Positions 10,101-61,446 of a DNA stretch of 64,000 bases are shown here, piece by piece. Made by a program: the position numbers and the translations under genes. This DNA comes from Apostichopus japonicus. Its lineage: Eukaryota > Echinodermata > Holothuroidea > Aspidochirotida > Stichopodidae. The DNA is taken from NCBI RefSeq assembly GCF_037975245.1, contig NC_092569.1:16352001-16416000 (forward strand), written 5' to 3'. Numbering within the stretch: position 1 is the first letter of the stretch; every line of letters starts with the position of its first letter. Below the pieces are notes generated by a model that ran no database searches, was not told where the DNA came from, and was given only the letters and a program-made list of their open reading frames with translations.

Positions 10101-11441
10101 AAACACAGGAAAGAACAAACCACAATGTCAATTGATATAAACAATGACTCTCGCGGTAGAATAAAACATTTCTATAATAGTGGGTATCCTGAGTAGATAT
10201 TCACAATGGCTAAAATCGTTGCTTTGCTTATTTACACAATAAAACAAGTCAAAACAACTTTATTTTTTTAATGACTACTTTAGATCTGCTTTAGTCTTAA
10301 ATGGTAATTAACGGAATATCCATTTGACATTTGAAATTATTGGATCTTATTTTCTTTATAAATGGAAAATAATCGTTTGAATATTTCCAGCAACTTAAGT
10401 TTTGATCAATTATTAGTATTTATTTCTCTACGTAAGACGCCATTTAATCATTTAATCTAACTTAACTGATCCGTTAATAAGAAAATTTTAAGTTTTATCG
10501 ATTGCTTCAAATAGTTCCTATTATTGTTTCAAGGCATTAAGTTATTGGTATTGCACTGTACCATGTATCTAGCAAGTAACCTTCCGTCATGTAGTTTTTT
10601 AAATATATATTTAAATTGCCAAAAATGGTTATTGGAACTATGTTTGTACTAAAGGATTGATGTACTAGATTGGAAGCCAGTTAACGATGGCTCAAGGAAA
10701 AATTTCAATTAATCTTTGTTAAAGAATCAACGGTTATATCCTTACATATGATAAATCATGTTTTATGTTATCGATGGTTGTTATAGTTTATTTGCTATGT
10801 TGGACGATACAATTAAATACCCGTTTGAAACGTGATCATTTCCTCGATATATAGGCAAGTCATTGTCAATTTGAAATTGCTTGTTGTATACGTTAAATAA
10901 AAGAATTTTTATCGTTGTTTTAAGAAAATAACTGATATTTTAACCCTGTTTACCCCAATCTCTATTTATGATATGGTGTAATACAATTTTTTATGTTTTA
11001 TTGCGTACATGAGGTAGATCACAATGAGCAATCTAAGTATTTTTTTTTTAAATAAGTACAAATTATCGATATTTAACAAACAGCAAATACTTCAATAGAA
11101 CCCGACAATAAACTCAAACAGCATGATAAGAGAAGCTGAAAAGTCAAATTTAGTTAAGAAATAGATTAAAGTAGATTCGTTAGATTAGTAGATTAAGTAC
11201 AAACTAGCTAGATTGCAAAGATAGAAAATAAATCATTTGAACACCAAATATGAGCATGGTAACGAAAACTGGCACATTAATATTAAAGTTCGAAATCTAT
11301 CGACATAGAAATCATTTATCACACTTAAAATACAATTCAACTTGAATTTGAGAAAAGATAAAAGACACTTACGGTTTCTGCCTGAAAAGCTGGAAGTTGA
11401 GAGAAGAGTCCCAAAACACAAAATGTTAGGATTAACTGCAT
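3951..11441 (-). CDS. Gene A: secreted fibrinogen-related (FReD) protein, truncated by a premature stop
   Basis: Five-exon gene: exons 11373-11441, 7358-7403, 6145-6317, 5564-5834 and 3951-4135. Every boundary has GT/AG and the reading frame is continuous. The predicted protein has 247 residues: signal peptide 1-21, furin-type site R32-N-K-R35, then the FReD domain from about residue 39. DC (54) and YC (86) are the usual first FReD disulfide pair; GGGWT is at 92-96 and FQRRVDG follows. The calcium-site motif DSDND and GAWWY lie in exon 5. After YKSI a TAA replaces the Tyr codon present in genes B and D, removing the last 22 residues, which include the family's closing KIRP motif. The lost frame is still open to the old stop at 3885-3887, so the mutation looks recent. 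FReD proteins are usually secreted lectins for acetylated sugars; the role here is inferred. It could be a young pseudogene or an expressed short form. Confidence 0.85.
4136..5563 (-). other. Gene A intron 4
   Basis: 1428 nt with GTACGC donor and CACAG acceptor. Alignable to intron 4 of genes C and D. It includes a TTA/ATT-rich stretch near 5302-5342. No exon or RNA recognised inside. Confidence 0.75.
5564..5834 (-). CDS. Gene A exon 4: central FReD segment
   Basis: 271 nt, phase 0 in and phase 1 out, with acceptor AACCAG and donor GTACGC. It encodes V-F-Q-R-R-V-D-G-S-V, then EFYRDWDDYR and WLGNDKISLLTNQ, the typical FReD core. Gene A has private changes here: Y for D in DYRYGFGF, G for E in SDEGTKY, I-V-G-V-G for L-V-G-L-G, and an R in EYDRSST. 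Confidence 0.92.
5835..7357 (-). other. Gene A introns 3 and 2 (flanking exon 3)
   Basis: Intron 3 (5835-6144, 310 nt) is shorter than in B and D (about 535 nt). Intron 2 is 6318-7357 (1040 nt). AT-rich with short homopolymers. I see nothing else in them. Confidence 0.7.
6145..6317 (-). CDS. Gene A exon 3: N-terminal FReD segment
   Basis: 173 nt, phase 1 in and phase 0 out; acceptor TTCTTCAG and donor GTAAGA. It contains the DC...YC cysteine pair, an additional QC cysteine at residue 61, the sequon NNS and GGGWT. Gene A differs from the others by C and L in DSCYLFY (DSSYFFY elsewhere, ESSYFFY in C), Q in DCQEVY, D in CEDSSS and E in PFEVYC. It therefore has one more cysteine than the other copies. 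Confidence 0.92.
7358..7403 (-). CDS. Gene A exon 2: linker with RNKR site
   Basis: 46-nt exon, phase 0 in and phase 1 out, acceptor ATATTAG and donor GTAACA. It encodes NVGRENSGRNKRTTG. R-N-K-R matches the furin-type R-X-K/R-R consensus and lies just before the FReD domain. It is too short to find without comparison to the other copies. Confidence 0.85.
7404..11372 (-). other. Gene A intron 1 (3.97 kb)
   Basis: Long first intron, closely similar to intron 1 of gene B over about 7500-9500 and again near the 5' end. A segment of roughly 500 bp (about 9530-10040) is absent from gene B. Also alignable to introns of C and D. No coding region recognised. Confidence 0.75.
11373..11441 (-). CDS. 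Gene A exon 1: signal peptide
   Basis: 69 nt from ATG to the donor ACC|GTAAGT. It encodes MQLILTFCVLGLFSQLPAFQ then AET: hydrophobic core, a probable signal-peptidase site after FQA, phase 0 exit. The ATG is the first in the conserved block and is preserved in B and C (exon 1 of D is out of view). Confidence 0.88.
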
Positions 11442-15290: not shown

Positions 15291-16600
15291 GCGATTGTTA
15301 AAAATTATTCTTGGACGGTAGATGTGATGAGGGGGTGGGGGTAGGTGAGTGGAGGATTGCTTAGAGGCAACACCTGTAAAATGAATCTCAATATGAATAA
15401 TATTTTCTTGTATCTTACATATTGGACAAAATTCCGCGGCATTCTCGATTACTGTGGAAGTCAATAGGCGGTGAACTTCAAGGTAAGGTTTACATTGTGA
15501 CAAACACAATTACAGACTGATGTTATTACCCAATATTTGAGATCACTTTTGATCGAACATTTTCAACGATGTATGTACTACCTCGATACCAATAGGTTTA
15601 CAAGAATTTCATGTTCAGCCCTTTGTAAATATAAAAAAGCTGACATTTTAATAAAGAAATTATATTTCTAACCAATAAATTTACAACTCAGAATAATAAT
15701 AATACAAATAAAACACTCTAGAAAAAAAGAAAGCAGCAGCGTTACTTGATAAATACAACATAAAGGGTTCATATTTCACATGAATAAAACTCAAGATGGA
15801 TGAGTCTGGAAATATATTCATCTTCCTGTAATATTCATCATTCAATGTTGAAGTCTAAGAGATTTGTTGTTAAGTTAATGGTCCATTATTTCACAAGTCT
15901 AGAGTATATGACGATGATACAATGTTTGGAATAAGAATCATAGCAATGAGTACCGTACCACCACGCTCCGTGACAATACTGAGCCAAGTGATAATAAGAG
16001 CGACGATCATTGTCGCGTTCTAACGTCGAAAATGTCTGGTTCCTGTGATGCGCCATCCTATCGTTTGCTGCGAAAGGAAAACACAAATACGAGATGAAGT
16101 AGACATGGTTCTTCATTATGTTATTTATTTACACCTTTGACTTATTTTCTACTTATTAAATAGTACATGCATTTTTAGGACTGCGGGCTACATGTGATGG
16201 AGGTATACAAGCTCCACAATTTCTCCTGTAAGTATCTTTGTAAAATATAATGTTGATAGTTACATCGTTTAGTGCCAAAATTTACTTGTGGTGATCAGAT
16301 GTGATGTCATAAATGCCTTTGATAAATCTGATTTTTTGATAAGATGTTATTCTAATGTTGGGAACTTTTCATTCCTTCAAGGTAAGGTCTGAACAATAAG
16401 ATAAAAATCTAGCAACTATTTTTTGTATAGTGTACAGTACAACTATGACATCACATCTGTTTGCACCATGTTTAGTTATTATACCACTGGCAAGTTACTA
16501 CCAATTTCAGCTTTCAATATATCGATAACGGTTACAGTTGCTGGCAAGTTTTATTAAAATGCTTAGAAACTATTTTTCTTTCATCAGTAATCTCATTTAC
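15290..16600. repeat. Duplicate of the gene B 3' region
   Basis: Homologous to about 20610-21760, which holds exon 5 of gene B and its 3' flank. Shared landmarks are GGAGTGGA(G/A)GATTGCT near 15350 and 20635, the motif TTTCACAAGTCTAGA near 15890 and 20930, and the sequence upstream of the exon. It contains the broken exon at 15886-16067 and no matching exon 4. Confidence 0.8.
15886..16067 (-). pseudogene. Orphan, internally deleted FReD terminal exon
   Basis: Good acceptor TTTCGCAG at 16068, then A-N-D-R-M-A-H-H-R-N-Q-T-F, ERDND (calcium-site position) and YCHGAWWYGTHCYDSYS. It is closest to exon 5 of gene B. After about 50 codons the frame runs directly into sequence that in gene B is 3' UTR (CATTGTATCATCGTCATATA), so the NLNG...KIRPV part was deleted and the remnant ends at TAA 15886-15888. 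No exons 1-4 lie nearby in the next 4.9 kb. It is most likely a pseudo-exon. Use as an alternative last exon of gene B (skipping over its own exon 5) is possible but unproven. Confidence 0.85.
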
Positions 16601-21000: not shown

Positions 21001-21260
21001 TTACACTGGACGTATCTTCATTTCAGCGTATTTTATGTTGTAACTACTCCCTGGAAGATTATACCAATAGATGCTCTTGTAAGTAGTACTGCCGGCTGTG
21101 TACAGTCCGTTCAGGTTAGAATAATAATTATTATAACAATAACTACCGTGCCACCAAGCTCCGTGACAAAACTGGGCCAAGTTGTAACTAGAGTGACGAT
21201 CATTGTCGCGATTGAACGTCGTAAATGTCTGGTTCCTGTGATACGCCATCTTATCATATG
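21001..21260 (-). CDS. Gene B exon 5: C-terminal FReD end
   Basis: 260 nt, phase 1 entry after TTTCGCAG, stop TAA at 21001-21003. The loop between GAWW and LNG (21118-21150) reads HGSYCYNNYYSN, twelve residues with a cysteine at residue 228. B alone has NQTF, NRDNDRH and a WWH motif, traits it shares with the orphan exon at 15886-16067 (NQTF, RDND). Confidence 0.92.
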
Positions 21261-21864: not shown

Positions 21865-24800
21865 GGTTTTCTGTTTCTGTTTAATTCCCTTTTCTTAGTT
21901 TGTTTTGTTTTGTGTTTTTTTTTGTGTACTTTCCTAAAGGGTTTTATTGCTACGACTATATGGGAGCAGGGTAGGAAATAGGAGATTTCATATTTTGGAA
22001 TAACATTCCACTTCAATATATCCCGACTTCCTGGTTGACACTCAGATCACACGGGATATGGATTTGACGAAGAATATTCTATGTTTATAATCATATCTTA
22101 GAGCGACTTTTCGAGTAACTATATATCTTGGCATATACCTATGCAGAGTTTACTACCTTTATTGTTGGAACACATTCAGTAATAATTGTAGTAATAATAC
22201 ATGATGGTTGCACGTTGCCAAATGTCACAAATGGCACATCTTTCCGAAATGTCAATTATTTATTACCTTTAAATTTTGTATTGATATATTTATCGTATTA
22301 ATAGAAACACTGCGTTCATCATATATAAATACTGCTGATGTTTAACTTCCAAGTGAGAGTTATGCCTCGACACAGCAGGGAAATACAAAGAGCAACCGCA
22401 TGACATATTATATATACGTACCTGTAGTGCTGGAGCTATCGTATTCTCCAAGGCCAACTAAACGATACTTAGTCTCTTCATCGCTGATCCTAAACAGGTC
22501 GTACTTCGCAAAATAGGGATCTCCATTCACGTTGTTTAAATCAATTCGAAGTATGTAATCCTTTTGGTTGGTTAAGAGTGATATTTTATCGTTGCCAAGC
22601 CAAAATTCCTTATTGAGGAAACCAAAGCCATCTCGGTAATCATCCCAGTCTCTGTAAAATTCTACGGAACCATCGACCCGGCGTTGGAAGACCTGGTTTA
22701 GTTTAAAAAAAAAAATGGTTTCAAAATAATGAACAATTTGTACGATGTACCTTTGATGTGTATGACGTGTCAGTGTGGGAAGTGTTAATGGTTCGTCTTA
22801 CGTTGAACAGATACGATAGCCTGTGCACCATTATTCTTTTTCTAACAGAATACATTGGTATCATTTCATTTTTACCCATATTGCAGTAATATGGCTGTAG
22901 AAACATTTGAAGGTAGCGAAAAACTGTCTCGCTATAAGAGACAACAATCATACTTAGGATATTTAAAGGATACTCGTGAAGTTATGTTATACGTTATTAG
23001 AAATAAGACGGTAAATTTGAAACTAAGTAACGTTTTCCTGAGAATTATATCAAACTAAAAGATACGAATAAAGAATGCATGCCTTGTCGAACGAATCAGC
23101 ACCTGTTACACACAGAATCTGTACCAAGGAATCGCTTTTTACTGAACCAATAAAGTATAAAATATCAAAATACTGCAGCAGGCACGCTAAGTAGAAATGA
23201 ATTAAGGCTAATATTATGTTATGTTCTTACCGTCCAGCCTCCTCCGTCAATTGAGTTATTACAGTAAACTTGAAAAGGTTCATTGGCTCCATCTGGCTTA
23301 ATCAGATAAATTCCAGATTCAGAGGAACTCCCTTCACATTGGTCGTAAACTTCTTTACAATCTCGAGGATATTCTGGCTCTTGGTAGAAAAAGTAGGAGG
23401 AGTCTGAAGTAATGAAAGGAAAAAAAACTTGTAAGAAATGGATGCGATCATTTTTAAAGTGAACTACCGAACTGGATGTCCCGTTTACCGCTCTATCGAT
23501 ACAATTGAAAATTACGGTTTGCAAGAAAAAAAGCTTTCCAAATATGAAACATAACCTTCCATAGATTTTTTGCTTGGAATAACAGCATTGAAATAACGTC
23601 GTCAAATCGTAAAAAAACAAACAAATATAGAGAGAATCCTTAAACGAAGTCACAGAATATCCCACCTCTTTCCCCCGCAAGAAAAATAAATCCTGATAAG
23701 TTCTGGTCAAAATATCAATTAAATTTAAAACGACCAATAATTGCCTTCTTTCCAACCGCTGTGACAAACATTAAAAGGCTTCTCAGCCAGTGTTAAAAGC
23801 GTTTTGCTTTTCGATTTTTAGACATATTAGCTTTTTTTTTCACTAAATTAAAAAAAAACCAGAGTACGCCTTTCCGTGTAGAAATAATTATGACTTTAGG
23901 TAGTAGTTTTTAGTTCATATTAATTACTACATCATGAAACGTAAGTATTAACGCATATTAACCCAAAATATGTGAAGACCAAAAAAGCAGAAATCACCAT
24001 TATTGTCAATCTAAATCATTAATATGACTGATCGATTAATACTGTTTTTGATGATATTATTTTAAAACGGTTCTTAATATTAAGTGACATGAATACTATA
24101 TATGTATTTATTCACCGATAGTAACTCTTTTAATTATAAGTCGTTTCCAGCCAGCTTTAAAAGTGGCTTAATTTTCGTTTTACAGTTTTTTTTCTAACTA
24201 AATTAAATAATCCAAAGTATGTCTTTATGTGAAGAAAGCATTAAAAACACAATAAACAGTCGATGATGATATAAGGTAGTAGATATTGGTACATAGTTGG
24301 TTACAAAATAAAAAAAACGGAAGTACAACGCATATTAAACAAATGTGTGTACCAAAAAAAAAATCACTATACATGTCAAACGAGTTCACTGATATGAATG
24401 ATTAATTAAGTTAGATTAATCATTTACTTCGATGGGTACCTCTAAAATAAAAAATAAATAAATACAATTGCATTCATACTTGTAATGGCCTTTGTTAAAA
24501 CGTGATTTTTTTCCCCCCAACAATTGAAATATGCGTTTAAAATAGTAGAAACAAAAAGGAATAATGATGATAAATTTTTCTTACCTCCAGTGCTTCTTTT
24601 GTTCCTTCCAGAATTTTCCCGTCCAACATTCTAAAATTGAAGATATGAAAATTGACATATGAAAGAATCAACATTCCGATATGCGGGATCGTCTCGTTTG
24701 TGAAGGCTACTCATCGCTGAAATCAATTCACGATTAGAAATTCAGTTTCAAATATTGTTAAGTACTGTTTATCTTTGATTAAAATCCAATGTAGTGAAAC

Positions 24801-27243
24801 CAGGAATCGTTAACTTTGTCACCATTTAGGTAATCCTAATTCTTTCACTGACAGAGAGGCAATCAATTTGACCCCACTCGATTGACAATGTTTCTGTATT
24901 GTTCATATTAAGATCTCTCTGTTTGACTCATTTGTAGGAAACATTATGGGAAGTCAATCGATTATTCCAACACTCTGTTCCAACACAGTTGAACTATAGG
25001 GTCTATAACGTGTGTATAGAACTTTCTGTAAGTCGTGACTTATTTTAATGAAAACAAAACGTGGTTCTATTCTATACTGTGGTCTTTGTGTTTACTTCGT
25101 AGCATGGTTTGACGACAAAGTTAAAACAAAAAGTTGAAACTATTTAGATGACAGAATGACTGAATAAACAAATTACTTATTCAATGTCATTCTTGCCCTG
25201 TTTCCCGCCCTTATACTATATACCTTAGATAAAACAGTATAGTAGACGTTTTAATTTCCGCGACATGAAGTGAGAAAGGAATATGATTCCTTCCCGTAGG
25301 AGAAAAAAATCAAAATTGAATTCAATGAGCTTTTTGAAATGAAATGAATCTAGAAAATACTAGGAAATTTGATAGCTTGAAACTGAGACAAACACACGGT
25401 TTTCTAGACGTTCACAATTTTCATAAATATATCTCACATTAATGTTTTCGTCTGTGTATTAAAACGTAAATACGACTATCGTAGTGCTTAGCTGAGGTAA
25501 TTATCGTTAAGTAAGATATTTAAGATTGATGAAAATATTAGGAATTGACTTTCATGTACGTACAAATATAATTTGAATTATCCTAGTTAACATAATTTAA
25601 AAATGTTAGAAAGTTCAGTGATTTATCTAAAATAGTACTAAGTGTGGTGGGTACTCTCACCGTTTGTTCCTTCAAAGTTCTGTTTGCTTAGTAAGTTCTA
25701 CCATTTTGACATTATGGCATATATGATTTATTTGTTAGTAATAATCTATAATACTCATTAAAATTCCCTCATAAACTAAGACCACCAATACAATTTATGC
25801 ATCATAATAATCAAACTTGTAATGGGTGCTTCACTGCCTTTTCCACGTTTTCAAATGTTTCCAAAGATAAAAGCCTATATTTTGACTGTTTTATGCAGAC
25901 ATAATTCCTTAAGGTGTACATAAATGACTCCCTCGGTAGAATAAATAAGTTTCAGTAGTGCGTGTCCCGATTAGATATTTACAATTTTGGTAAATTTTGT
26001 TGTTTGGTTTATTTGCACAGTTAAACAAGCCGAAGCAACTTTATTCTCTCCTTGGTTTGTTGGTCTGTGTTGATGGTAAGTTTAATTAATGAAATATAGA
26101 CTAAAGTAATTTAAAGTTGGAAATATTATGTACTGGTACTTGGTAGATTCACATCGAATGTAATCGATTCAATATTTACATCAAGAGTTTTACATCAAGT
26201 GATTTATGAGTATAATTTATGATTTTAAGGCATCATTCCACAAGATATAATGTAAATATAAAGACGTTTTAAGTTTGATTGGTTGCTCTGAGTTTCTGTA
26301 CAGTACCCTATCTCTCATAATTTACCTACGTATAGATTAAATGTCAAATATGAAGGTTTAAACTATGTTTGTGCAGTAATATTGAAAGACTAGATTCGGC
26401 AGCAAAGTGTCAGGAGCGTTAACATTTGTTAAAATTAATAATTTATTGCTTTCCTAAGTAAGTAGTTTTCAACTTGTTTTACTGCTATAAAAAAAGGAAT
26501 TCTATCACGATTTCCTTGATGGCATGTCAAGAAAGGAACGCGCTCAAAACACAGGAAAGAACAAACGACAATGTCGATTGATATTAACAATGAGTCTCGC
26601 AATAGAATAAATACATTTCTAGAATAACGGTTATATTTAGTAGCTATTAACATATGCCAAAATCGTTGCTTTGTTCATTTATACAGTTATATCCTTACAT
26701 ATGATAATTATTTTCCTTTTTTTATGTTATCGATCATTGTTACATTTTATTTGCTATGTTGGACGATGTAATTAAATACCCGTTTGAAACGTGATCGTTT
26801 CCACGATATATCGGCAAGCCATTGTCAATTTTAAATTGCTTGTTGTATTCGTTAAAAAAAAGGAATTCATATCGTTGTTTTAATAAAATAAATGATATTC
26901 TAACCCATTTTCAAACCCAACTATATTTATGATATGGTGTACTAAGACGTCCTATACACGAGGTAGTTCACAATGAGCACTCTCGAATTTCTTTTTTAAT
27001 ATGTAGATTAAGTACAATATACCAATACTTTACAAACAGACAAATACATCAATTGAACACCGACAACAAACTCAAACAGCATGGTAAAGAACAACTGAAA
27101 AATCATATTTAGTTTAACAATTATTGTGTTAAAATATTCAACTTTAACTTGATAACAAGATAAAAGACACTTACGGTTTCTGCCTGAAAAGCTGGAAGTT
27201 GAGAGAAGAGTCCCAAAACACAAAATGTTAGGATGAACTGCAT
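21001..27243 (-). CDS. Gene B: complete secreted fibrinogen-related (FReD) protein
   Basis: Exons 27175-27243, 24585-24630, 23231-23403, 22422-22692 and 21001-21260 join into an open frame of 819 nt (272 residues). Signal peptide 1-21, linker with R32-N-K-R35, FReD 39-272. Key features are Cys54, Cys61 and Cys86, a sequon at N87, GGGWT 92-96, FQRRVDG 98-104, a sequon N196-Q-T, the calcium-site motif N203-R-D-N-D207 (first Asp replaced by Asn), C218-H-G-A-W-W, Cys228, N235-L-N-G and the end MKIRPV. The usual FReD Cys of the NCA motif is Leu214; Cys218 is displaced by four positions. Exon 5 and the 3' flank differ from A, C and D, while exons 3-4 resemble D and exons 1-2 resemble A, so the gene looks like a mosaic. 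Expected role: secreted lectin-like recognition protein, inferred from family. Confidence 0.9.
21790..21861. repeat. (AT)n microsatellite, about 36 copies
   Basis: Uninterrupted AT dinucleotide run of 72 bp in intron 4 of gene B. The equivalent introns of A, C and D lack it. Confidence 0.95.
22422..22692 (-). CDS. Gene B exon 4: central FReD segment
   Basis: 271 nt, open throughout; acceptor AACCAG with an A-rich tract upstream, donor GTACGT. Nearly the same protein as C and D; private changes are N-K-E for K-R-E in GFGFLNKEFW, I for M in KDYILRI, and a final S-T-T. Confidence 0.92.
23231..23403 (-). CDS. Gene B exon 3: N-terminal FReD segment
   Basis: 173 nt, acceptor TTACTTCAG and donor GTAAGA. 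DSSYFFYQEPEYPRDCKEVY, QCEGSSSES, VYCNNSIDGGGWT. It differs from gene D by a single S/P change, and the neighbouring introns also match D best. The open frame continues by chance upstream into intron 2; the acceptor shows where the exon really begins. Confidence 0.92.
24585..24630 (-). CDS. Gene B exon 2: linker with RNKR site
   Basis: 46 nt, encoding NVGRENSGRNKRSTG. Acceptor ...TTTTAG, donor GTAAGA. Same length and phases as in A, C and D. Confidence 0.85.
24631..27174 (-). other. Gene B intron 1 (2.54 kb)
   Basis: Similar to gene A intron 1 but shorter. One missing segment joins AGTAAGTAGTTTTCAACTTG to the ACTGCTATAAAAA motif near 26460-26490, where A and C keep roughly 450-500 bp more. 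No coding sequence seen. Confidence 0.7.
27175..27243 (-). CDS. Gene B exon 1: signal peptide
   Basis: 69 nt, MQFILTFCVLGLFSQLPAFQ then AET, donor ACC|GTAAGT. One residue (F for L at position 3) differs from gene A. Confidence 0.88.
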
Positions 27244-31400: not shown

Positions 31401-34180
<2,780 letters not shown>

Positions 34181-35941: not shown

Positions 35942-36201
35942 TTACACTGGGCGTATCTTCATTTCTGCGTATTTGATGTGGTAATAACTTCCTGGAAGAT
36001 TATACCAGTGGATGCTTTTGTAATTAGTACTTCCCGCTGAGTAAAGTCCGTTTAAATTGGCATAACAGTAATAATAATAATAAGACTTGTACCACCACGC
36101 TCCATGACAATACTGGGCCAGGTTATAACTACTATGAGGGTCGTTGTCACTGTCGAATGACGTAAAGGACATGTTCCTGCTGTATGCCATTCTATCATAC
36201 G
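35942..36201 (-). CDS. Gene C exon 5: C-terminal FReD end with tyrosine run
   Basis: 260 nt, acceptor TTTTCACAG. The loop at 36059-36091 reads YKSYYYYYCYA, with Tyr codons forming a (TAT/TAC) run in the DNA, then NLNGLYSAGS. Stop TAA at 35942-35944. The loop is three codons longer than in A and D. Confidence 0.93.
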
Positions 36202-39200
36202 CTGTGAAAAGGAAACACGAGATGCAGATAAAACGCATTATCATATTTAAAACAGTTTTCAGTTATTTCCACACGGCATAAATTAAGAGAAGGTTCATAG
36301 TAGAATTTATGTAGAATTAATGATAAATGAAACACTGTCATATTAAACAAACATTTTCTCTAAATTTGTATCAATTTCCAAATATATGTTGTTTACACCG
36401 CTTGAAGGAATTATTAGTGCCTTCATATGAAAACTTAATTAATATCCAACTTTCACATCACACATTGTGGATTCATTTTTACTTCATGATACGTGCATGC
36501 ACATTATGTCTTTTTCAAGTAAGGTACTATTGCTACGACAATGGTACCGGTATGTTGGAATCGTAAAAAAAAAAATCAATTATGAAGAACATTATTTTTT
36601 CATAAATGGTTTTATTTACCAAATTATTGGATCATTGTGTAAGAAGTCTATAGAGATTCCAGCTTTTATTTCTACTATTATTCTCTTTTCGTTATGTTTC
36701 CAGTTGAACGGAGGTGAGGTCTTTTGGTAATTAGAGAAGATGGCAAAATATTATAAATCATGGGGAGATGAAAGGAAAGTTGGAATAGGGTTTTTGTTAT
36801 CAATAACAAGTCCGTTTGTCACTGGAGGTATACGTGTTTCAACCTGAGTTAATTTAAGGTATATCTTTCAACCTGAGTTCATTTTCGGAGCGCATTAATC
36901 ATGGATTTCAACCACAATTTACCTGACCAGCTTTCTTCCATTCGACCACAAACAGTGTACTTATTGAAAAAAAAGAGAGTCGGTAATTGTCTATGACCGT
37001 CGGCTTTCTATACTTGAGCTCCCAATGTAATCGTTTATCACACATGAGTATACTTTTTTATATTTCAAATTCGAACACAATAACAAAACCTAAATTATTT
37101 AATATTTATGGATATTTTAAAGACAGTATGCTCAGTTTGACAACCTTGACGTGATGGATTCGTCTAGTGTTTTGATAACAACAGAAGTAGAGTATAACGG
37201 CCATTGCCTGGGAGTCTTGTAATGTATCGTTTTATGAAGATTTATGTAATGTTATAGTAAAACATGTAAATAAGATAATAATTATAAATATTGTTCTTGA
37301 GCTGATCATTTCTAAAATGTTTTCGTATATGCTACATATTTGATGAAATGTTACAGTCGGCTAATGAACTGACGAACTAAATACACGGTTTAATTTGACA
37401 ACAAACGTTAGAAAGGGAGGTAACGGATCAATGTAGTTATGCATAATTTGTTTGAGGCGTTGATAAACTCCTTGCTAATCTTCAGTACTTTGAAATATCT
37501 TAGATAAGGTATAGGTGATGACAAGCAAAATCCACGAGGTTTATATGTACCCACCTGTTGTGCTGGAGCTATCGTATGCTCCAAGGCCAACTAAACGATA
37601 TTTAGTCTCTTCATCGCTGATCCTAAACAGGTCGTACTTCGCAAAATAGGGATCTCCATTCACGTTGTTTAAATCAATGCGAAGCATGTAATCCTTTTGG
37701 TTAGTTAAGAGTGATATTTTATCGTTGCCAAGCCAAAATTCCCTTTTAAGGAAACCAAAGCCATCTCGGTAATCATCCCAGTCTCTGTAAAATTCTACTG
37801 AACCGTCGACCCGGCGTTGTAAGACCTGGTTTAGTTTCAAAATAAAAAAAAACATGCCATATTTGGTTTAAACATAATGAACCATTTGTTCGATGTACGT
37901 TTGATGGGTATAATGTATCAGTCTGGTTAGTGCTTTTAATGTTTCGTCTAACGTTGGACAGATACGGTAGCCTGTGCATCAGTTGGATTCTACTTATTCT
38001 AATGAAATACATTGGTATCATATAACTTTTGCCTATATTGCGAACAGTAATATGGCTAAAGAAACATTTTGAGGTACCGAAAAACTGTCTCGCTATAAGA
38101 GAAAACAATCATACTAAGGAATATTAATGGTTACTCGGGAGGTTATGTTAAGCGTTATTAGAAATACATATCTAAGATGGTAAATTTGACACTAAGTAAC
38201 CTTTTTAAATCAAACTGAAAATAAAATAATGAAGATTGCATGCCTTGTCGAACGAATCATCATCTGTAACACATATAAACTTTGTAAAGAAATCTGTTTT
38301 ACTGAACCAAAAGAATATACACTATCAACATCAGGCGCGTAGCCAAGGGGGGGGGGGCGAAGGGGGCAGCCGCCCCCCTTGAGCTTAATTTTTTTTTTTT
38401 ATGTTTTTATGATATCGCTAGTATTTTCAAAAGAGAAAATGCTAAGATGCAACTTACAAGGCCTGGGAAGTGCCTTTTCCAGCGATCTGGGAGGCATTCT
38501 AAGCCAAAATTTTCTTGTACGCTTCGCGCCAACCATGGTGGCGCTACGCTTAGATAGTTTTCAATGCCGAATCTACAGTTTCGCCCCTCCCTTGGCAAAT
38601 TCCTGGCTACGCGCCTGATCAACATACTGCAGCAAGCACGCTACATAGAAATCAATTAAGGGTAATATGATATTATGTTCTTACCGTCCAACCTCCTCCG
38701 TCAATTGAGTTATTGCAGTAAACTTGGAAAGGTTCATTGGCTCCATCTGGCTTAATTAGATAAACTCCAGATTCAGAGGAACTCCCTTCACATTGGTCGT
38801 AAACTTCTTTACAATCTCGAGGATATTCTGGCTCTTGGTAAAAAAAGTAGGAAGACTCTGTAGAAATGAAAGAAACTTTTTAAGTGAACTACCAAACTCG
38901 ATGTGTCGTTTACCTAACCCTCGATTAATGTGAAAATTACTGTTTGCAGAGAAAAATTTTGTCAAAGTTTTAAACGTAAATCTTCCATATACATTTTTCT
39001 GCTCGAAAATATAACCATGGAAGTACACATTGTAAAATCGTAAAAAGAAACAACAAATAAACAGAATAATAATTAATGAACTAAAAGAATAACAAGCAAG
39101 TTTTGATCAGTTTTGGTAACTATGTCGATTTAATTTAGAACGATAAATTTTTCCTCCTTTCACCGCGACAAACCTTAAAAAAAAAACATTATTTTGTGTA

Positions 39201-42200
39201 CTTTTCAGTCAGTGATAAAAGTGTGTTGCTTTTCGATTTTTCGATATTTTTTAATTTAACCAAACTACAAAATCCCGAGTACGCCATTTAGTGAAGAAGA
39301 AATCATGTCTAACGGTAGTAGGTCTTAGTTTATATATAATTACCAAATCAAGAAACATAAGTATAAATGTAAAAGACCACAAAAGCAGAAGTCAAAATTA
39401 TTGTTAATTAAGATCATTAATATGACTGATTAATTCCGTTTCTGTAATACTGTTTTTGATGAGAGAATTTTTTTCTTCAGTGACATGAATACTATATATG
39501 TATTTATTCCCCGATGGGTAAATCTATCATAATAGTTTCTTAAAGGCATGAAGCCCAAATTAAAAATGAAAATTAAGTTATATTCAATCCGAAATTATAA
39601 ATGAAGTAAACTAATTTTAAAAATCCCGATAAATTCTAGTAGCTATATTTGTTTAAGATTAATCGACAAATGTTGGTCTCCTTTAGACCACCGCGAAAAA
39701 CATTAAAAGGCTCTCAGTTTTTACATAAATTGATTCCAGCTAGCTTTTAAAGCGGTTAAGTTTTTGTTTTACAGTATTTTTTGTAACCAAATTAAATAAT
39801 CCACAGTATATCTTTATTTGAGGAAAGCTTAAATAAATATTAATATGCCGATGGTGTTATAAGGTAGTAGGTATTGTGCATATTTAATTACTACATCACG
39901 AAACGGAAGTATAACATCATATTAAACAAATGTATGTAAAAAAAAACAGAAATCACAATAATTGTCTATCAAAATCAATGATATTAATGACTCATTAAGT
40001 TAAATGAATCATATATATCGATGGGAACCTCTTAAGTGAAAAAAACAAATAACATGCATACTTGTAATGTCCTTTTTTAGAACGTGAATTTTTTTTTGTG
40101 TGTATAAGATTCATGTAAAAGTTTCTTTGAAATAGTTAATAAAAAATCAAGAGAATGATACATATTTCTTACCTCCAGTGCTTCTTTTGTTCCTCCCAGA
40201 ATTTTCCCGTTCAACATTCTAACATGGAGATATGAAAATTGAATATAAATTCAACAAAATCACTAAAAGGACATTCCGATAGGCATGAGGGACTCGATTG
40301 TAAAGGGTACTTACCGCCGAAATCAATTTAGTTCCAAGGCTATTTTAATTTGCTGCAAATCTTTAGTTAAGGTCCAACGAAGTGAAATCAGGTATCATGA
40401 ACTATGTCACCATTAGGTCATTTTAATCATTTCACTGATAGAGAGGCATTTACTTTGACCTCACTCCTGTGACAATGTTTCTGTATTATTCATATTAAGA
40501 TCTTTCTGTTTTACTCAGATATTAGCTCTTTTGTAGGAAACATAACGGGAAATCAAGAGACACTATTCCATCACTTTATTCCAACACAGTATAGGTATTC
40601 AGTTTATAACATTTATGAAATTTTCGTTAAGCCGTGACATATTTTAATAAAAACAAGATATGTTTCTTTTTAATACTGTGTTGTCGTTGTGTTTACTTTT
40701 TGGCAACCATGATTGTTCGTAAAATAAGTTTTGACATTATTTAGATGATAGAATATATGAATAAACAAATTACACACTCAACGCCATTCGTACCCTTTTT
40801 CCCGCTTGTATTCTGTATAACCTAGATAAAACAATAATATGTGGCGCTTAAATTTTCGCGACAGGAATTGAGAGAGTAATATGACTCGTTCTAGACGATC
40901 ACAATTTTCATAAATACATCTCATATTAATGTTCATGTTTGTGTATTAAAGGGAAATACGACTAAAGCAGTGCTTACTTGAATTAATTATCGTTTAGTAA
41001 GATATTTAGGATAGATGAACATATTACGAAATGACTTTCATGTACGTACAAATTAATTATCCTAGTTAAATTAGTCGTTATCGCAATTCTCAATTCTTCA
41101 ATGTTCGGTTTGCTAAGTAAGTTGCGCCATTCTGCTCCTATGGCACGTATGATGTATTTGTCAATAATAATATATAATACTTATTAAAACTCCCTCATAA
41201 AATTATACCACCGATACAATTGATTACAATTAAAGCTTCATGGAATGCATCATATTAATCAATGTTGTGTTTGAGAAATTGATAAACTTCAACTCACTGA
41301 TCTAGACAACATTTTATCATCAATTGCGATATTCGCTTTCTATATTGTTCAAAAATTGTAATGGATTCTTGACCGCCTTCTCCAATTTTTTCAATGTTTC
41401 CAAAGATAGGCCTTTATTACTTCATACGATGCAACAACGTTATTGAGCCTACTAAAACCAAATATTCTAGTTAAATCAGTCTCAGTCATAACCAAATTGC
41501 TCAGTGTTCCTTTGTAGTAATACGGCGCTCTTTTAAAGTTTATATTCAAGACTACATCAGATTAAAGCAATGAGGGATTCTTGTTATTTGTTTAAACTGT
41601 TATTAAAATATTTTGATATTCCATCGCTATGTCGTCGATGTCATGCCAAGGAAAACATGCGCTAAAAACACGCGAGAGTACAGTTTATTCCTAATTTTTA
41701 TGTTAAAAATGAGTGTCTCGGTAAAATAAATACCTTTCAGTAGTGTGTGTCCCGATAAGATATTTAAAATTTTTAAAATTTTGTTGTTTGGTTTATTTAC
41801 AGAGTTAAACAAGCCAAAGCAACTTTATTCTCTCCTTGGTATGTTGGTCTGTGTTAATGGTAAGTTTATTAAATGAAATATATGACGAAATTATTATAAA
41901 AATATTGTTCAATATATATGTACTGGTACTTAGTAGAATCATATCGAATATAATCGATTCAGTATTTACAACAATTGTTTGTGATTTATGAGAATGATTT
42001 ATGATTTTAAGGCATCATTCCACAATATATAATGTAAATATAAAGACGTTTTAAGTTTGATTGGTTGCTCTGAGTTTCTGTACAGTACCCTACGTCTCAT
42101 AATTCACCTACGTTTAGATTAAATGTCAAATATGAATGTTCATACTTTGTTTGTGCTATAATATTGAAAGACTAGATTCTGCAGCAAAGTGTCAAGAGCG

Positions 42201-43954
42201 TTAACATTTGTTAAAATTAATAACTTATTGCTTTCTTAAGTAATTCACAGTAAGTTGTAGACATATATTTTAGCATCAGGTTTTTATCTACTAATCGATT
42301 CCTTAATCAGGTTAGTTGTTATTTTGAAAGGTATAATTGAAAACACATTTGTCAAATTTATATATTTCTTGGCGCAAAAAAATGAGAATGCCCATCTAAG
42401 AATATCAGCAATTGAAGTTTGAGAACTGATTACTGGTAAAAGTAGCATCTATCATAACATGTACGTAATATTCGCCACCAAATTTTGTCCAACAAAATAT
42501 ACAATACATGTCCAATGAATTGGGGAGAAATATTTATCTGAGAGAGATTTTAAAGGCCATTATTATTAAACACGATACAACGGTGACAAAAAACATAGAC
42601 TGATATTTTACTTTAGCAAGACATGTTTTAAACTTGATGAAATTAAGTTGAGATATTTTCTTATCAATTTTTTAAACTGCTATAAAAAAGAAATTCTGTC
42701 ACGATTTCCTTGATGAAATTTCAAGGAAGGAATGCGCTCCAAACACAGGAAGAACAAACTACAATGTCGATTGATATAAACAATGAGTCTCGCGGTAGAA
42801 TAAATACATTTATATAACAGTGGGTATCCTGAGTAGATATTCACAATTGCCAAAATCGTTGCATTGTTTATTTAAACAATTCAACAAGTTAAAACAACTT
42901 TAACCGTTTTTGCCTACTTATGATCTGCTTTAGTCTTAAATGTAATTAACGGAATATAAATGTGACGTTTGAAATTATTGCTTTATATTTTCTTAACATA
43001 TAGATGATACGCTTGAATCTTTCTTGCAACTTCAACTTTTTATGATTTATGAGTATTTTTATTTCAGACATTATTCAACCATTTAATCTAACTTAGCTAA
43101 TCCATTAATAAGAAAGTGTTAAGTTTTATAAATTGCTTCAAATAGTTACTATTATTGTTTCAATGCATTTATTTATTGGTATCGCACTGTACTATGTACC
43201 TAGCAAGCCACCTTCACCCATTTATTTTTAAAAATATAAATTTGAATTACCAAAAATGGATAATGGAACTATGTTTTTACTATAGTATTGATTTACTAGC
43301 TTAGAAGCAAGTTAAAGTTGGCTTAAGGAAAAAATTCAATTAATCTTTGTTCAGGAATCCAAAGGTTATATCCTTACATATGATAATTATTTTCACGTTT
43401 GTGTTCGATAATTGTTATAGTTTGTCTGCTATGTTGTACGATAATTAAATACCCGTTTGAAATGTGATCGTTTCCACGATGTATCGACATGTCAATGTCA
43501 GTTTTAAATTGCTTATTGTTTTCGTTTAAAAAAAATGAGTTATTATCGTTGTTATAAGAAAATAACTGATATTTAGACCACTTTTCAAACCTATCCATGT
43601 TTATGATATGGTGTAATTAAACTTATTATATTTTATTGTGCACATGAGGTAGTTAACAATGAGAATTCTATATTTTATCGTAAATAAGGAGATTAAGTAC
43701 AATAATATCAATATTTTAAGAACAGACAAATACACCAATAGAACACCTACAATAATCTCAAACAGCATGGTTAAGAGAAATTGAAAATCATATTTAGTTT
43801 AAAAATTATTGAGAATTGAGATAGAAATTCATTTATAACAAGTAAATATTCAACTTGAATTTGTTGAAAGATAAAAGAAACTTACGGTTTCTGCCTGGAA
43901 AGCTGGAAGTTGAGAGAAGAGTCCCAAAACACAAAATGTTAGGATGAACTGCAT
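35942..43954 (-). CDS. Gene C: complete secreted fibrinogen-related (FReD) protein
   Basis: Exons 43886-43954, 40173-40218, 38685-38857, 37555-37825 and 35942-36201 join into an open frame of 819 nt (272 residues). A second ATG directly upstream (43955-43957) could add one Met. Signal peptide 1-21, R32-N-K-R35 furin-type site, FReD 39-272. Cys54 and Cys86 are the standard first disulfide; Cys61 is extra. D203-S-D-N-D207 is an intact calcium-site motif. C218-H-G-A-W-W is followed by a tyrosine run and Cys232, then N235-L-N-G. It ends MKIRPV. The second cysteine is four residues away from that of gene B. Intron 3 carries a hAT-type MITE. Probably the best candidate for a functional gene with both C-terminal cysteines and a full calcium site. 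Confidence 0.9.
36202..37554 (-). other. Gene C intron 4
   Basis: 1353 nt, alignable with gene A and gene D intron 4. No coding content recognised. Confidence 0.7.
37555..37825 (-). CDS. Gene C exon 4: central FReD segment
   Basis: 271 nt; donor GTGGGT rather than GTACGY. VLQRRVDG (L for F at position 98) and GAYDSSST (A for E) are private to this copy; otherwise it matches D. Confidence 0.92.
38332..38617. mobile_element. hAT-type MITE in intron 3 of gene C
   Basis: 286 bp bounded by CAGGCGCGTAGCCAAGG on the left and CCTGGCTACGCGCCTG on the right, which are inverted repeats of each other. It is flanked by an exact 8-bp direct repeat ATCAACAT (38324-38331 and 38618-38625). Gene A has a single ATCAACATAC in the same intron, an empty-site match. 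An 8-bp target duplication is characteristic of the hAT superfamily. There is no transposase, so the element is non-autonomous. It also has a poly(G) and GGGGGCAGCCGCCCCC palindromic tract near the left end. Confidence 0.88.
38685..38857 (-). CDS. Gene C exon 3: N-terminal FReD segment
   Basis: 173 nt, acceptor TTCTACAG, donor GTAAGA. It begins E-S-S-Y-F-F-Y (E for D at the split codon), then DCKEVYDQCEGSSSESGVY and GGGWT. Confidence 0.92.
38858..40172 (-). other. Gene C intron 2
   Basis: 1315 nt, AT-rich, closest to intron 2 of gene D. Nothing coding seen. Confidence 0.7.
40173..40218 (-). CDS. Gene C exon 2: linker with RNKR site
   Basis: 46 nt, NVERENSGRNKRSTG; E replaces G at position 26. 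Acceptor CATGTTAG, donor GTAAGA. Confidence 0.85.
40219..43885 (-). other. Gene C intron 1 (3.67 kb)
   Basis: Alignable with intron 1 of A over most of its length and, at its 3' end, with D. No coding content recognised. Confidence 0.7.
43886..43954 (-). CDS. Gene C exon 1: signal peptide
   Basis: 69 nt, same peptide as gene B (MQFILTFCVLGLFSQLPAFQ then AET). The donor is ACC|GTAAGT. ATGATG at the start leaves the exact first Met open. Confidence 0.87.
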
Positions 43955-47640: not shown

Positions 47641-48738
<1,098 letters not shown>

Positions 48739-57737: not shown

Positions 57738-57988
57738 TTAAACTGGACGTATCTTCATTTCTGCGTATTTTATGTGGTAATAACTTCCTGGAAGACTATA
57801 CCAGTAGATGCTTTTGTAATTAGTACTTCCTGCTGAGTAAAGTCCGTTGAGACTGACATAATAATTATAAGTCTTGTACCACCACGCTCCATGATAATAC
57901 TGGGCCATGTTATAACTACCATGAAGGTCGTTGTCACTGTTGAATGTCGTAAAGGACATGTTCCTGTAGTATGCCATGCTATCATATG
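57738..57988 (-). CDS. Gene D exon 5: C-terminal FReD end
   Basis: 251 nt, acceptor TTTTTCACAG, stop TAA at 57738-57740. The loop at 57855-57878 is nine residues, as in gene A. No cysteines in this exon. Confidence 0.92.
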
Positions 57989-60900
57989 CTGTGAAAAAGA
58001 AAACACGAGATAGAGATAAAATGCATGATCATATTTACAACCATATTAAGTTGTTTCCATACGACATAGATTAACAGAAGTTTCATTGGAGAATTTATGA
58101 AAGATTAATGAAGCACTATTTTATTGTACAAAAGTTTTCTTTAAATTTGTATTTATTTCCAAGTAAATGTCGTTTACACCACTTGAATGATATATTAGGG
58201 CCTTTAGATGAAAACTGAACTAATATGGATTTGCTTCATTATTTTGTTTTTGTTTTTTGCCAACATGATTAGTACACTAGGACATATTTTTATTGCAAAC
58301 TGGCAATCTCTTTACGATAACACTAGAACCCTTTTCCAATGTCAATTAATACAATGAATACAATAAAAACTGTACAAAATGGCTTAATTTAATCCAGTTT
58401 GTTGTCAAGTATCCAATTTTTACATCACATCTTATGGATCCCTTTGTACTTCATGGTACACATTATGTCTATTTCAAGTAATATATCACTGCTCCGACAA
58501 TGGTACCGGTATATGGGAATCGTTAAAACAAATTAATCGATAATTATTGTGAAGAACATTATTTTTTCATCAATGGTTTTATTTACCAACTTATTGGATT
58601 ATTGTTTAAGAAGTCTAAAAAGATGTCTATTTAATTGTCATTAATCTCTTTTCGTTCTGTTTCCAGTTGGACGGAGGTGAGGTCTTTTTGATTATTAGAG
58701 AGGATGAAGAAAAATTATGGGATGATGAGCAGATGACGAGGAAGTTGGAATAGGTTTGTTGTTATAAATTACAATGCATTCTGTCACTGTAGGTATAAGT
58801 GTTTCAACCTGAGTTCATTTAAGGTATATCTCTCAACCTGAGATCATTTACGGAGCTGATTCATCATTTACTCCAAACACAATTCTACCTGACCATTGAG
58901 CTGATAATTTCTTAAAATGTCAACGGATATGCTACATATTTGATGAATGGTTACAATCGGCTAATGAACTGACAAACTAATTACACGGGTTAATTTGACA
59001 ACAAATGTTAGAAAGGGAGGTAATGGGTCAAGGTAGTAATGCATAATTTGATATAGGCGTTAATAAACTCCTTGCTAATCTTCAGTACTTTGAAATTTCT
59101 TTGATAAGGTATCGATGACTAGCGAAATCCACGGGGTTTTATATATACGTACCTGCAGTGCTGGAGCTATCGTATTCTCCAAGGCCAACTAAACGATATT
59201 TAGTCTCTTCATCGCTGATCCTAAACAGGTCATACTTCGCAAAATAGGGATCTCCATTCACGTTGTTTAAATCAATTCGAAGCATGTAATCCTTTTGGTT
59301 AGTTAAGAGTGATATTTTATCGTTGCCAAGCCAAAATTCCCTTTTCAGGAAACCAAAACCATCTCGGTAATCATCCCAGTCTCTGTAAAATTCTACGGAA
59401 CCATCGACCCGGCGTTGGAAGACCTGGTTTAGTTTCAAAACAAAAAAATGGCTTCAAAATAATGAACAATTTGTACAATGTACCTTTGATGTGTATGACG
59501 TATCAGTGTGGGTAGTGTTTAATGGTTCGTCTTACGTTGAACAGATACGGTAGCCTGTGCACCATTATTCTTTTTCTAACAGAATAAATTGGTATCATAT
59601 CATTTTTATGGCTGTAGGAACATTTGAAGGTAGCGAAAAACTGTCTCGCTATAAGAGAAAACAATCATACTTAGGATTATTAAAGGTTACTCGTGAAGTT
59701 ATGTTAAGCGTTATCAGAAATACATATCTAAGACGGTAAATTTTAAACTAAGCTACGTTTTCCTGAGAATTATATCAAACTAAAAGATACGAATAAAGAA
59801 TGCATGCCTTTTCGAACGAATCAGCACCTGTAACACACAGAATCTGTATCAATGAATCGCTTTTTACTGAACCAATAAAGTATAAAATATCAAAATACTG
59901 CAGCAGGCACGCTAAAAGTAGAAATGAATTAAGGTATATATTATGTTATGTTCTTACCGTCCAGCCTCCTCCGTCAATTGAGTTATTACAGTAAACTTGA
60001 AAAGGTTCATTGGCTCCATCTGGCTTAATCAGATAAATTCCAGATTCAGAGGGACTCCCTTCACATTGGTCGTAAACTTCTTTACAATCTCGAGGATATT
60101 CTGGCTCTTGGTAGAAAAAGTAGGAGGAGTCTGAAGGAAGCAAAAAGAAAAACTTGTAAGAAATGGATGCGATCAATTTTAAATTGAACTACAGAACTCG
60201 CTGTTCCGTTTACCGAACTCTCGATAAAAGTGAAAACGGTTTGCAAAAAAGCAACAACAAATGTTTATCAAAGTATTAAACATAAATCTTCAATGCATTT
60301 TCCTGCTTGGGAGAACACCATGAAAGTAAAAAATTTAAAATCATAAAAGAACGCAACAAATATATAGACAAATCTTAAATTGAAGTAGCAGAACACCTGA
60401 ATAAATGTCTATTTAATTTAAAACGACAAAAGTTGGCCTCCTTTTCACCGTCGCGAAAAACCTTTCATTTTTTTTAAATTTCCCAGCCAGTTAAAAGCGG
60501 GTTGCTTTCCATTTTTTTTTTCCAGTTTTTTAGTTTTTTAAACTAAATTACAAAACCACGTCATTTGAGTACTTCTCTCTGCCAAGAAAGAATTATAACT
60601 TTAGGTGGTAGGTTTAATTAATATGTATACCTACCACATCAAGAAACTTAAGTATCAATGCATATTAACCAAAAATATGTGAACACCACAAAAGCAGATA
60701 TCACCATCATTGTCAATTAAGATAATGTATATGAATGCTCAATGTCGTTTCTGTAATACTGCTTTTGATGGTAGCATGTTTGTTTACAAACAGAATTGAA
60801 TATGAAGTGAGATGAATATTATATATGCATTTATTCACCGACGGCTACATCTATCATGATGGTTTCCTAAAGGCATGAAAACCAAGTTAGAATTGAAAAT

Positions 60901-61446
60901 TAAGATACATTCAATCCTAAATTTTAAATGAAGTAAACTCATAAAAAAACGATCAATTTTAGTAGCTATGTTTGTTTAAAGAACTGTAGTCAAATGTTGG
61001 CCTCCTTTTTACTATAAGTATTTTGACTATAAGTTGTTTCCAGTCAACTTTAAAAACTTAAATTAAATTTAATAATCCACAGTACGTCTTTATGTGAAGA
61101 AAGCATTAAATAAATATTAATTAGTCGATGATGATATACGGTAGTAGGTGCATATCTAATTACCACATCACGAAACAGCATATTAGACAAATGTATGTAA
61201 AAACAAAACAGAAATCACAATAATTGTCTAATTAAGTTAGATGAATCATATATATCGATGGGTACCTCTAAATCGAAACAAAAAATGAAAATTACATTCA
61301 TACTTGTAATGTACTTCTTTAGAACATGTATTTTTTTGTAAAAGATTCATGTTAAAGTTCATTGATAAAAGAAATGAATAAGAATGATCATTTTTTTTAC
61401 CTCCAGTGCTTCTTTTGTTCCTCCCAGAATTTTCCCGTCCAACATT
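57738..61446 (-). CDS. Gene D: secreted fibrinogen-related (FReD) protein, exon 1 outside the window
   Basis: Exons 2-5 seen: 61401-61446, 59958-60130, 59153-59423, 57738-57988; all frames open and splice sites present. By alignment of its first intron with gene A, exon 1 (signal peptide) should lie roughly 0.6-0.7 kb beyond position 64000. Linker with RNKR, standard cysteines Cys54 and Cys86 plus Cys61 (numbered as in B), GGGWT, VFQRRVDG. Exon 5 has NSDND at the calcium site (first Asp replaced), YYHGAWWYKTYNYYVSLNG without either C-terminal cysteine, NLNG changed to SLNG, and an intact end YWYSLPGSYYHIKYAEMKIR. The usual AATAAA seen in A and C is altered here. Inferred to be a functional paralogue of A with the full C-terminus. 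Confidence 0.88.
59153..59423 (-). CDS. Gene D exon 4: central FReD segment
   Basis: 271 nt, donor GTACGT. VFQRRVDGSVEFYRDWDDYR, GFGFLKREFWLGNDK, and ends GEYDSSSTA. Looks like the consensus of the four copies. Confidence 0.93.
59958..60130 (-). CDS. Gene D exon 3: N-terminal FReD segment
   Basis: 173 nt, acceptor CTTCAG, donor GTAAGA. DSSYFFYQEPEYPRDCKEVY, QCEGSPSES (P private to D), VYCNNSIDGGGWT. Confidence 0.93.
61401..61446 (-). CDS. Gene D exon 2: linker with RNKR site
   Basis: 46 nt, NVGRENSGRNKRSTG; donor GTAAAA is weaker than in the other copies. Acceptor ...CATTTTAG. Confidence 0.82.

Follow-up and report, generated by a model that had tools for sequence, protein, structure and literature searches.

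Variation at a tyrosine-rich pocket loop in a tandem array of FReD genes of Apostichopus japonicus

Across a tandem array of genes predicted to encode secreted FReD proteins in Apostichopus japonicus, variation within the terminal exon (exon 5) peaks at a tyrosine-rich loop and at the other residues that, by alignment, line the FIBCD1 pocket. Sequence comparisons also resolve the array into two old classes of intron 4-exon 5 cassettes carried on a homogenised 5' body. The most likely function of such an array would be recognition through many variants of one pocket. Expansion of FREPs in A. japonicus and diversification of FREPs by conversion are already known. What is new, as far as the open-licence literature shows, is a form that centres on the pocket, contains a triplet repeat and falls into two cassette classes; titles and abstract openings in that literature yielded neither tyrosine-repeat pocket loops nor relocated pocket cysteines in FReD arrays.

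Results

The window is the whole stretch of 64,000 nucleotides that was analysed, C9:16352001-16416000. It contains four copies (A to D) of a five-exon gene for a secreted FReD protein, all on the minus strand; the gene model is computational and was built from genomic sequence rather than cDNA. Exon 1 encodes a signal peptide, exon 2 encodes 15 residues with RNKR and is present in 20 of 20 regions compared, exons 3 and 4 encode the first two thirds of the FReD, and exon 5 encodes the rest. The exons of copy B (exon 1 with the signal peptide, 27175..27243; exon 2, 24585..24630; exon 3, 23231..23403; exon 4, 22422..22692; exon 5, 21001..21260) join into a clean, open precursor of 272 residues in which exon 5 codons start at residue 188. 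The precursor matches Pfam Fibrinogen_C across the whole domain (E 4e-64, profile 2-220 of 221), and its closest solved structure is ficolin-1 (2d39, E 9e-49). The FReD match begins at residue 51 and is preceded by only the signal peptide, the 15 exon 2 residues and roughly twelve residues from exon 3. A Pfam scan of the precursor at E 0.01 returned Fibrinogen_C and no IgSF domain, the joined computational precursor has no collagen-like region before the FReD, and no transmembrane part was seen in the gene model. Exon 2 of copy B encodes GRNKRSTG, and closely similar sequence occurs elsewhere; this sequence, placed before the FReD, resembles a furin-type cleavage site.

The other window copies share this structure. 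Copy C has exon 1 at 43886..43954 (signal peptide MQFILTFCVLGLFSQLPAFQAET), exon 2 at 40173..40218 (15 residues plus a split codon), exon 3 at 38685..38857 (the start of the FReD) and exon 4 at 37555..37825 (conserved FReD body). Its terminal exon, 35942..36201, is read from 36201 to 35942 and was delimited by its acceptor and open frame: the acceptor ends in TTTTCACAG, the exon opens with CGTATGAT, and a TAA stop lies at the low end. It encodes the C-terminal portion of the FReD, which includes the Ca site and the pocket loop, and matches Pfam Fibrinogen_C profile positions 141-220 (E 6e-14). Copy D comprises exon 5 at 57738..57988, exon 4 at 59153..59423, exon 3 at 59958..60130 and exon 2 at 61401..61446; its exon 1 lies beyond the window end and is visible in region L037. 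Copy A (exon 5, 3885..4135; exon 4, 5564..5834; exon 3, 6145..6317; exon 2, 7358..7403; exon 1 with the signal peptide, 11373..11441) is probably a pseudogene because its exon 5 carries an in-frame TAA after ...DYKSI. Modelling of exon 5 alone with AlphaFold2 (copies B, C and D) gave mean pLDDT values of 34.4 and 38.9 and was set aside.

These copies belong to an array of at least 38 scored terminal exons at C9:16.156-16.719 Mb, on a single strand and spaced mostly 12-17 kb apart. A genome-wide scan scored 150 of 781 candidates; the majority of the 150 are on contig C9 and 38 are in the array. The analysis covers 37 of the 38 (L001-L030 and L051-L057), leaving out a partial match at 16221228; a truncated exon in the window, 15930-16145, is outside the 38. 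The 37 comprise 30 distinct DNA sequences, of which 26 are stop-free. Identical copies of exon 5 are L001/L002, L013-L016, L020/L021, L029/L030 and L052/L053. In-frame stops occur in four of the 37, namely L011 (window copy A), L024, L055 and L057, so some decay appears to be under way. The four stop-bearing exons and seven exact duplicates were removed before entropy and maximum-likelihood (ML) tests (37 reduced to 26), as was one inserted codon of L054. Some 5-10 kb segments of the array are 98-99.7% alike, and copy C has a twin 53 kb distant that is 99.2-99.7% alike across 9.9 kb.

The sequence-only reading had singled out the stretch between WW and LNG in the four window copies, and its description of that stretch holds: the loops are YRTYNYYIN (A, 3999-4025), HGSYCYNNYYSN (B, 21115-21150), YKSYYYYYCYAN (C, 36056..36091) and YKTYNYYVS (D, 57852-57878), 9 codons long in A and D versus 12 in B and C, and the loop of copy C is rich in TAT and TAC (TAC AAG TCT TAT TAT TAT TAT TAC TGT TAT GCC AAT). 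The 37 array exons carry 28 different loops of 8-16 residues, a variety beyond what chance would give, composed of 41% Tyr, 17% Asn, 11% Ser and 7% Cys, with Tyr at 11% elsewhere in the exon. The interior codons of the 29 distinct loop DNAs are TAT (100), AAT (23), TCT (20), TGT (20), CAT (5), GAT (3), TAC (3) and TAA (1, in a stop-bearing exon), with TTT at 0. Point changes from TAT in the loop core yield Tyr, Asn, Ser, Cys, Asp or His. Judged from its codons, the loop core is a decayed TAT-triplet repeat whose length changes by whole codons. Slippage in this run, proposed from the sequence of copy C, fits the comparison of L022 with L028, near-identical copies whose loops of 15 and 16 codons are one TAT apart and whose flanking intron differs by 0.75%. 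A control with noncoding TAT repeats serves as a hint only, because 8 of the 16 runs found were the exon loops themselves and the approximately five distinct noncoding runs left are too few for a firm null.

Loops fall into two classes. In the G class, to which copy B belongs, the second loop residue is mostly Gly, the loop has 11-16 residues and it contains Cys. In the K class, which includes copy D, the second residue is mostly Lys, the loop has 8-10 residues and Cys is absent from it. Copy C is of the K class by intron 4 (as is its twin L001), yet has a 12-residue loop and a Cys pair.

The location of the loop can be read against FIBCD1. As described in PMC3908420 and PMC10825690, its acetyl pocket is formed by Tyr405, His415, Tyr431 and Trp443, with Ala432 at the base, and also uses main-chain groups of Cys414 and His415. 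The pocket is held by the Cys401-Cys414 bridge, and a cis bond precedes Cys414. Extended sites include His382, His396, Glu398, Arg412 and Asn413; Lys381 is the equivalent of a TL5A ligand residue but makes no ligand contact (PMC3908420, PMC10825690). FIBCD1 numbers were assigned to the array by counting along the ficolin-1 row of a sequence alignment, not by structural alignment. In this alignment the loop takes the place of FIBCD1 residues 412-415 of the S1 acetyl pocket, in agreement with the earlier suggestion that it borders the ligand pocket (PMC3908420, PMC10825690).

Among the 26 exons, mean entropy is 1.39 in pocket columns (n = 11) versus 0.47 in others (n = 69; Mann-Whitney p 1e-5). 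Outside the loop the values are 1.18 (n = 7) and 0.43 (n = 66), with a Mann-Whitney p of 4e-4 for the column set fixed by the ficolin-1 alignment. Because the five ficolin alignments disagree on the placing of positions 398 and 431/432, and because Lys381 of FIBCD1 makes no ligand contact, eight variants of the column mapping were compared, and the outside-loop p ranged from 8e-5 to 0.007. A first column set, which took the more variable of two candidates for residue 443, had given an outside-loop permutation p of 0.0005 and was replaced; the second set gave 0.018.

The residues at these positions differ from those of S1 lectins, and the Ca site is retained. The Asp-x-Asp positions of Ca-binding Asp393 and Asp395 are Asp in 26 of the 26 distinct stop-free exons. 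Position 405 is Cys in 15, Tyr in 10 and Trp in 1; position 414 is Cys in a single exon (L056); position 415 is never His, being Cys, Tyr, Asn, Ser or Asp; and position 443 is Ser in 22, Gly in 3 and Asn in 1, with no aromatic residue. Alignment at 431/432 is ambiguous: in two of five ficolin alignments Tyr stands at 431 (22 of 26 exons) and 432 is missing, and in the other three Asn, Thr, Tyr or Asp stands at 431 and Tyr at 432. The S1 acetyl-binding residue set (Tyr405, Cys414, His415, Tyr431, Ala432 and an aromatic 443) is found complete in none of the 26 exons.

The canonical pocket cysteines (NCA ... WWYxxC, corresponding to Cys401-Cys414), a disulfide that is a usual FReD feature and not a condition of the Pfam family, are absent as a pair from all 37 array exons. 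In the window copies the NCA cysteine had been read as Leu throughout; it is Leu in A, B and C and Met in D (YNMAQYYHG), and the canonical Cys is missing in all four. Across the 26 exons it is replaced by Leu, Met, Phe or Arg in the ficolin-1 alignment. Cys218, at 36107..36109 in copy C, aligns with FIBCD1 Tyr405 (+4; ficolin-1 alignment, numbering from PMC3908420), and the usual loop Cys of the G class aligns with His415 (+1). The positions previously given, Cys218/Cys228 in B and Cys218/Cys232 in C, are correct in the numbering of the 272-residue copy B precursor, and the two new cysteines also occur together beyond the window. Cys218 is accompanied by a loop Cys in 14 of the 15 distinct stop-free exons that have it, the exception being L025, and a loop Cys occurs in 0 of the 11 that lack it. 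This coupling is strong when kinship is ignored (Fisher 1.6e-6), and 13 of the 14 pairs are in the G class; the stop-bearing L024 also has Cys218 without a loop Cys. We infer a disulfide between Cys218 and the loop Cys.

Eight of nine hand-picked FReD exons outside the array in the same genome retain the canonical pair (NCA, with one HCA; WWYxxC or WWFxxC), and exact G-[A/G]-WWYxxCH codons occur at 36 places in a scan of the genome, all of them outside the array. The ninth, L058 (C9:32268625-32268785), has NSGQYC, WWYKANC and a further Cys, the G-class positions, and no tyrosine run. L058 and the canonical pairs outside the array make the relocation of cysteines look older than the tyrosine loops, and L058 is possibly an evolutionary intermediate.

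The 5' part of the gene is uniform across classes. Relative to copy D, exon 4 identity is 92-100% in 23 of 23 matches, self included, and exon 3 identity is 95-100% in 21 of 23, self included, the exceptions being L046 (76%) and copy A (88%); L038 has neither exon. In 54 cross-class pairs from 15 genes, synonymous difference is 0.06 in exon 3 and 0.13 in exon 4, whereas the two parts of exon 5 reach 0.75 and 0.37. Copies B and D are 90% alike in intron 3, and the first 900 bases of intron 4 have no detectable similarity between them; alignments between B and the other three window copies end approximately 14 bases past exon 4. Intron 4 of L022 and L023 is K-like over bases 1-260 (91.6-92% to L008 and L006); from base 356-360 almost to the end of the intron it matches G genes. 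On these matches, intron 4 of both genes holds a junction between the two cassette classes; a window-by-window scan labels the K-like stretches as G only because both genes match each other.

Exon 5 itself bears signs of exchange. In several close pairs it differs more than the adjoining intron; for example, L003 and L004 differ by 3.8% in the intron, 1.0% in the 3' flank, 6.5% and 7.9% in the exon parts and 13% in the loop. There are counter-examples: L009/L012 and L006/L008 have identical C parts of exon 5, and the 3' flanks of L022/L023 differ by 7%. Exon 5 differences within close pairs, some of which have members in common, are shared with other copies in 14/16, 7/7, 4/5, 17/18, 23/26, 4/5, 1/2 and 0/1 cases. 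The expected share for random changes is 0.26, a value that assumes equal mutability and is too low for freely changing sites. Conversion and cassette exchange would leave such a pattern, to which convergent selection may contribute. We did not adopt the view that conversion accounts for every pair difference, because L022/L028 (1/2) and L013/L019 (0/1) do not show it.

The evidence for selection on the loop differs by class. Whether the loop diverges beyond neutral introns receives a split answer: the mean is 0.20 versus 0.16 for the intron in the K class (38 equal-length pairs), and 0.11 versus 0.15 in the G class (10 pairs). Among pairs with intron p<0.3, the loop exceeds the intron at codon positions 1+2 in 30 of 34 K pairs and 5 of 9 G pairs. 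The comparison uses the 24 of 30 distinct exons that have flanks, including two stop-bearing K exons, and equal-length loops. In ML estimates, with partitions run separately in IQ-TREE, omega is 0.43-0.51 in exon 5 outside the loop within each class and 0.38 outside loop and pocket for the 26 exons together. K-class loops have an omega of 7-28 that rejects 1 under three frequency models (2dlnL 5.5, 9.6 and 13.9), in a test that covers 8 of 13 K exons, those with 9-codon loops, the other 5 being of other length. G-class loops have an omega of 1.0-1.6 (13 exons, gapped alignment), for which 1 is not rejected, and the seven non-loop pocket codons have an omega of 2.3, not significant versus 1 (2dlnL 2.1-2.6). 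Nei-Gojobori ratios for the loop, likewise from equal-length loops, are 2.6-3.2, or 0.8-0.9 with changes to stops counted in a partly different gene set; pN/pS of 2.6-3.2 was dropped as the main figure in favour of ML codon values because, where loops are rich in Tyr, omitting changes to stops inflates the number of silent sites. All tree-based tests are weakened by conversion and recombination, which break the assumption of a single tree. From the omega tests and the intron comparison, therefore, evidence for positive selection is moderate in K loops and absent in G.

Discussion

We suggest that the array is probably, with considerable room for doubt, a germline repertoire of pocket variants, in which secreted single-domain FReD proteins would share one body and Ca site and differ in their pockets. 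Diversity would come from cassette exchange within intron 4, short conversion tracts in exon 5 would add to it, and triplet slippage would vary the loop. G-class proteins would have a new disulfide, between Cys218 and the loop Cys, that braces the longer loop. N-acetyl groups would no longer be bound in the standard way and a range of ligands would be recognised instead, most likely on microbes or on wounded self tissue. Surface loops often vary more than cores, which counts against this reading. A stronger version, which we offer tentatively, is a germline system resembling CDRs: a coding TAT repeat would generate the length and residues of a ligand loop, intron 4 would be the point at which pocket cassettes are exchanged, each animal would have its own tyrosine-rich sites, and the disulfide moved by +4 and +1 into the former acetyl pocket would define a second structural class.

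The loop pattern could also arise under relaxed constraint acting on a microsatellite, where the disulfide has been lost, the loop is a tolerated bulge, the TAT repeat is neutral and copies drift toward pseudogenes with no binding repertoire. Consistent with this are a G-class loop omega near 1, G loop divergence that is not above that of introns, stops in 4 of 37 exons with one inside the loop (TAA, L057), and residues that are those to which TAT repeats mutate. Neutral drift of the loop, however, leaves both the variable pocket columns outside it and the coupling of Cys218 with the loop Cys unexplained. The Asp residues of the Ca site are invariant, omega elsewhere in the exon is 0.38 and K-class loop omega exceeds 1; the 0 TTT and 3 TAC among interior loop codons also stand against 71 other single-step neighbours of TAT, a contrast for which the noncoding control is too small to supply a neutral expectation. 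We regard relaxed constraint as unlikely.

The genes could instead be ordinary paralogues with one ligand, copies of a secreted FREP for regeneration or defence that multiplied for dosage; variation in exon 5 would then be incidental and the ligand site would lie elsewhere, as with S2-S4 of ficolin-2. FREPs are reported as the most expanded family of A. japonicus and as up-regulated during visceral regeneration (PMC5638244), and ficolin-2 is described as relying on other sites where its S1 is not active (PMC10825690). If the S1 region were unused, variation would not be expected to concentrate on its pocket columns, and we consider this explanation improbable. An assembly artefact, in which the length and mosaicism of the array are exaggerated by haplotype copies or mis-assembled repeats, would account for the several identical copies of exon 5 and for the highly similar 5-10 kb segments. 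But the published assembly that this genome matches is described as built from HiFi and Hi-C reads (PMC10344927), the most alike segments compared still differ by approximately 0.3-2%, and two haplotypes of a few genes could not supply as many as 26 distinct stop-free exons, which makes an artefact very improbable.

Compared with the S1 lectins FIBCD1, tachylectin-5A and M-ficolin, the array has the same domain and the same Asp pair in the Ca site, and a Tyr near the position of Tyr431 in 22 of 26 exons, where the alignment is ambiguous. These lectins have Cys401-Cys414 and His415, whereas the 37 array exons lack the pair and have Cys, Tyr, Asn, Ser or Asp at 415. Depending on the alignment, the array either lacks one residue or has Tyr in place of Ala432. 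Relative to the ficolin-1 row its loop is 0-8 residues longer and Tyr-rich, and ficolins have a collagen-like region, whereas the array gene model has neither a collagen-like nor a transmembrane part.

For A. japonicus, PMC5638244 reports 21 tandem FREPs on Scaffold75 and FREPs clustered mainly on one linkage group. The array very probably belongs to this family, and most of the 150 scored exons are on C9. Expansion and up-regulation in regeneration are described in that source (PMC5638244); pocket hypervariability, Cys relocation and cassettes are described here. Gene conversion, duplication and exon shuffling are reported as sources of diversity in Biomphalaria FREPs; these proteins have one or two IgSF domains before the FReD, whereas the array has none, and a triplet-repeat loop in the pocket, present in the array, is not among the features described in the available part of that account (PMC10875847). 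Sp185/333 (SpTransformer) of sea urchins is likewise a tandem echinoderm family for which duplication, conversion and nearby microsatellites have been proposed, and its coding exon is reported also to contain repeats (PMC3091723, PMC5103432). As described there, GA and GAT microsatellites flank those genes, whereas the array has its triplet repeat within the loop-coding sequence of a lectin-type domain; we point to a likeness and make no claim of homology. Minimalist Tyr/Ser antibody libraries, according to PMC3498902, have loops made mainly of Tyr and small polar residues, as the array appears to; those libraries are man-made and the diversity of the array is germline, so the comparison is an analogy only. 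In Holothuria glaberrima a FReD gene is reported to respond to LPS (PMC2702171), and FREPs of A. japonicus are reported to rise during visceral regeneration (PMC5638244); for neither report is a link to the array genes established.

How invertebrates without antibodies broaden recognition is an open question. Variation in the array falls on a structurally known pocket, and a simple coding repeat is a plausible generator of it. As a natural panel of variants on one body, the array allows a direct test of how germline loop diversity relates to ligand range, and it is likewise a natural experiment on the loss or move of a conserved pocket disulfide.

Other Features of the Array

Three G genes, copy B, L012 and L023, are each followed by a second, orphan terminal exon of the G type, 4.4-5.1 kb downstream of their own. 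These orphan exons are the truncated minus-strand exon at 15930..16145 of the window, C9:16221228-16221416, and L017 (region L044, C9:16522456). Two are partial; because L017 is intact, alternative last exons are possible in G genes. Terminal exon L010 has no exon 3 or exon 4 match in the 9.9 kb upstream (L038, C9:16452350-16462250) and is possibly another orphan 3' cassette.

In the window, copy C is flanked on both sides by microsatellites of approximately 1.1 kb, nearly pure TATC and ATT (32424-33514 and 47641-48738), and a block of a 43-base minisatellite is duplicated 54 kb apart (43-2215 and 53971-56165). The flanks of copies A and D are 97.6% alike up to a point approximately 460 bases from exon 5, on the 3' side of that exon, and 80-84% alike thereafter. 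Elsewhere the FReD family is very large in this genome, with further canonical WWYxxCH codons at C7:1215142-1330706 and C9:22-28 Mb.
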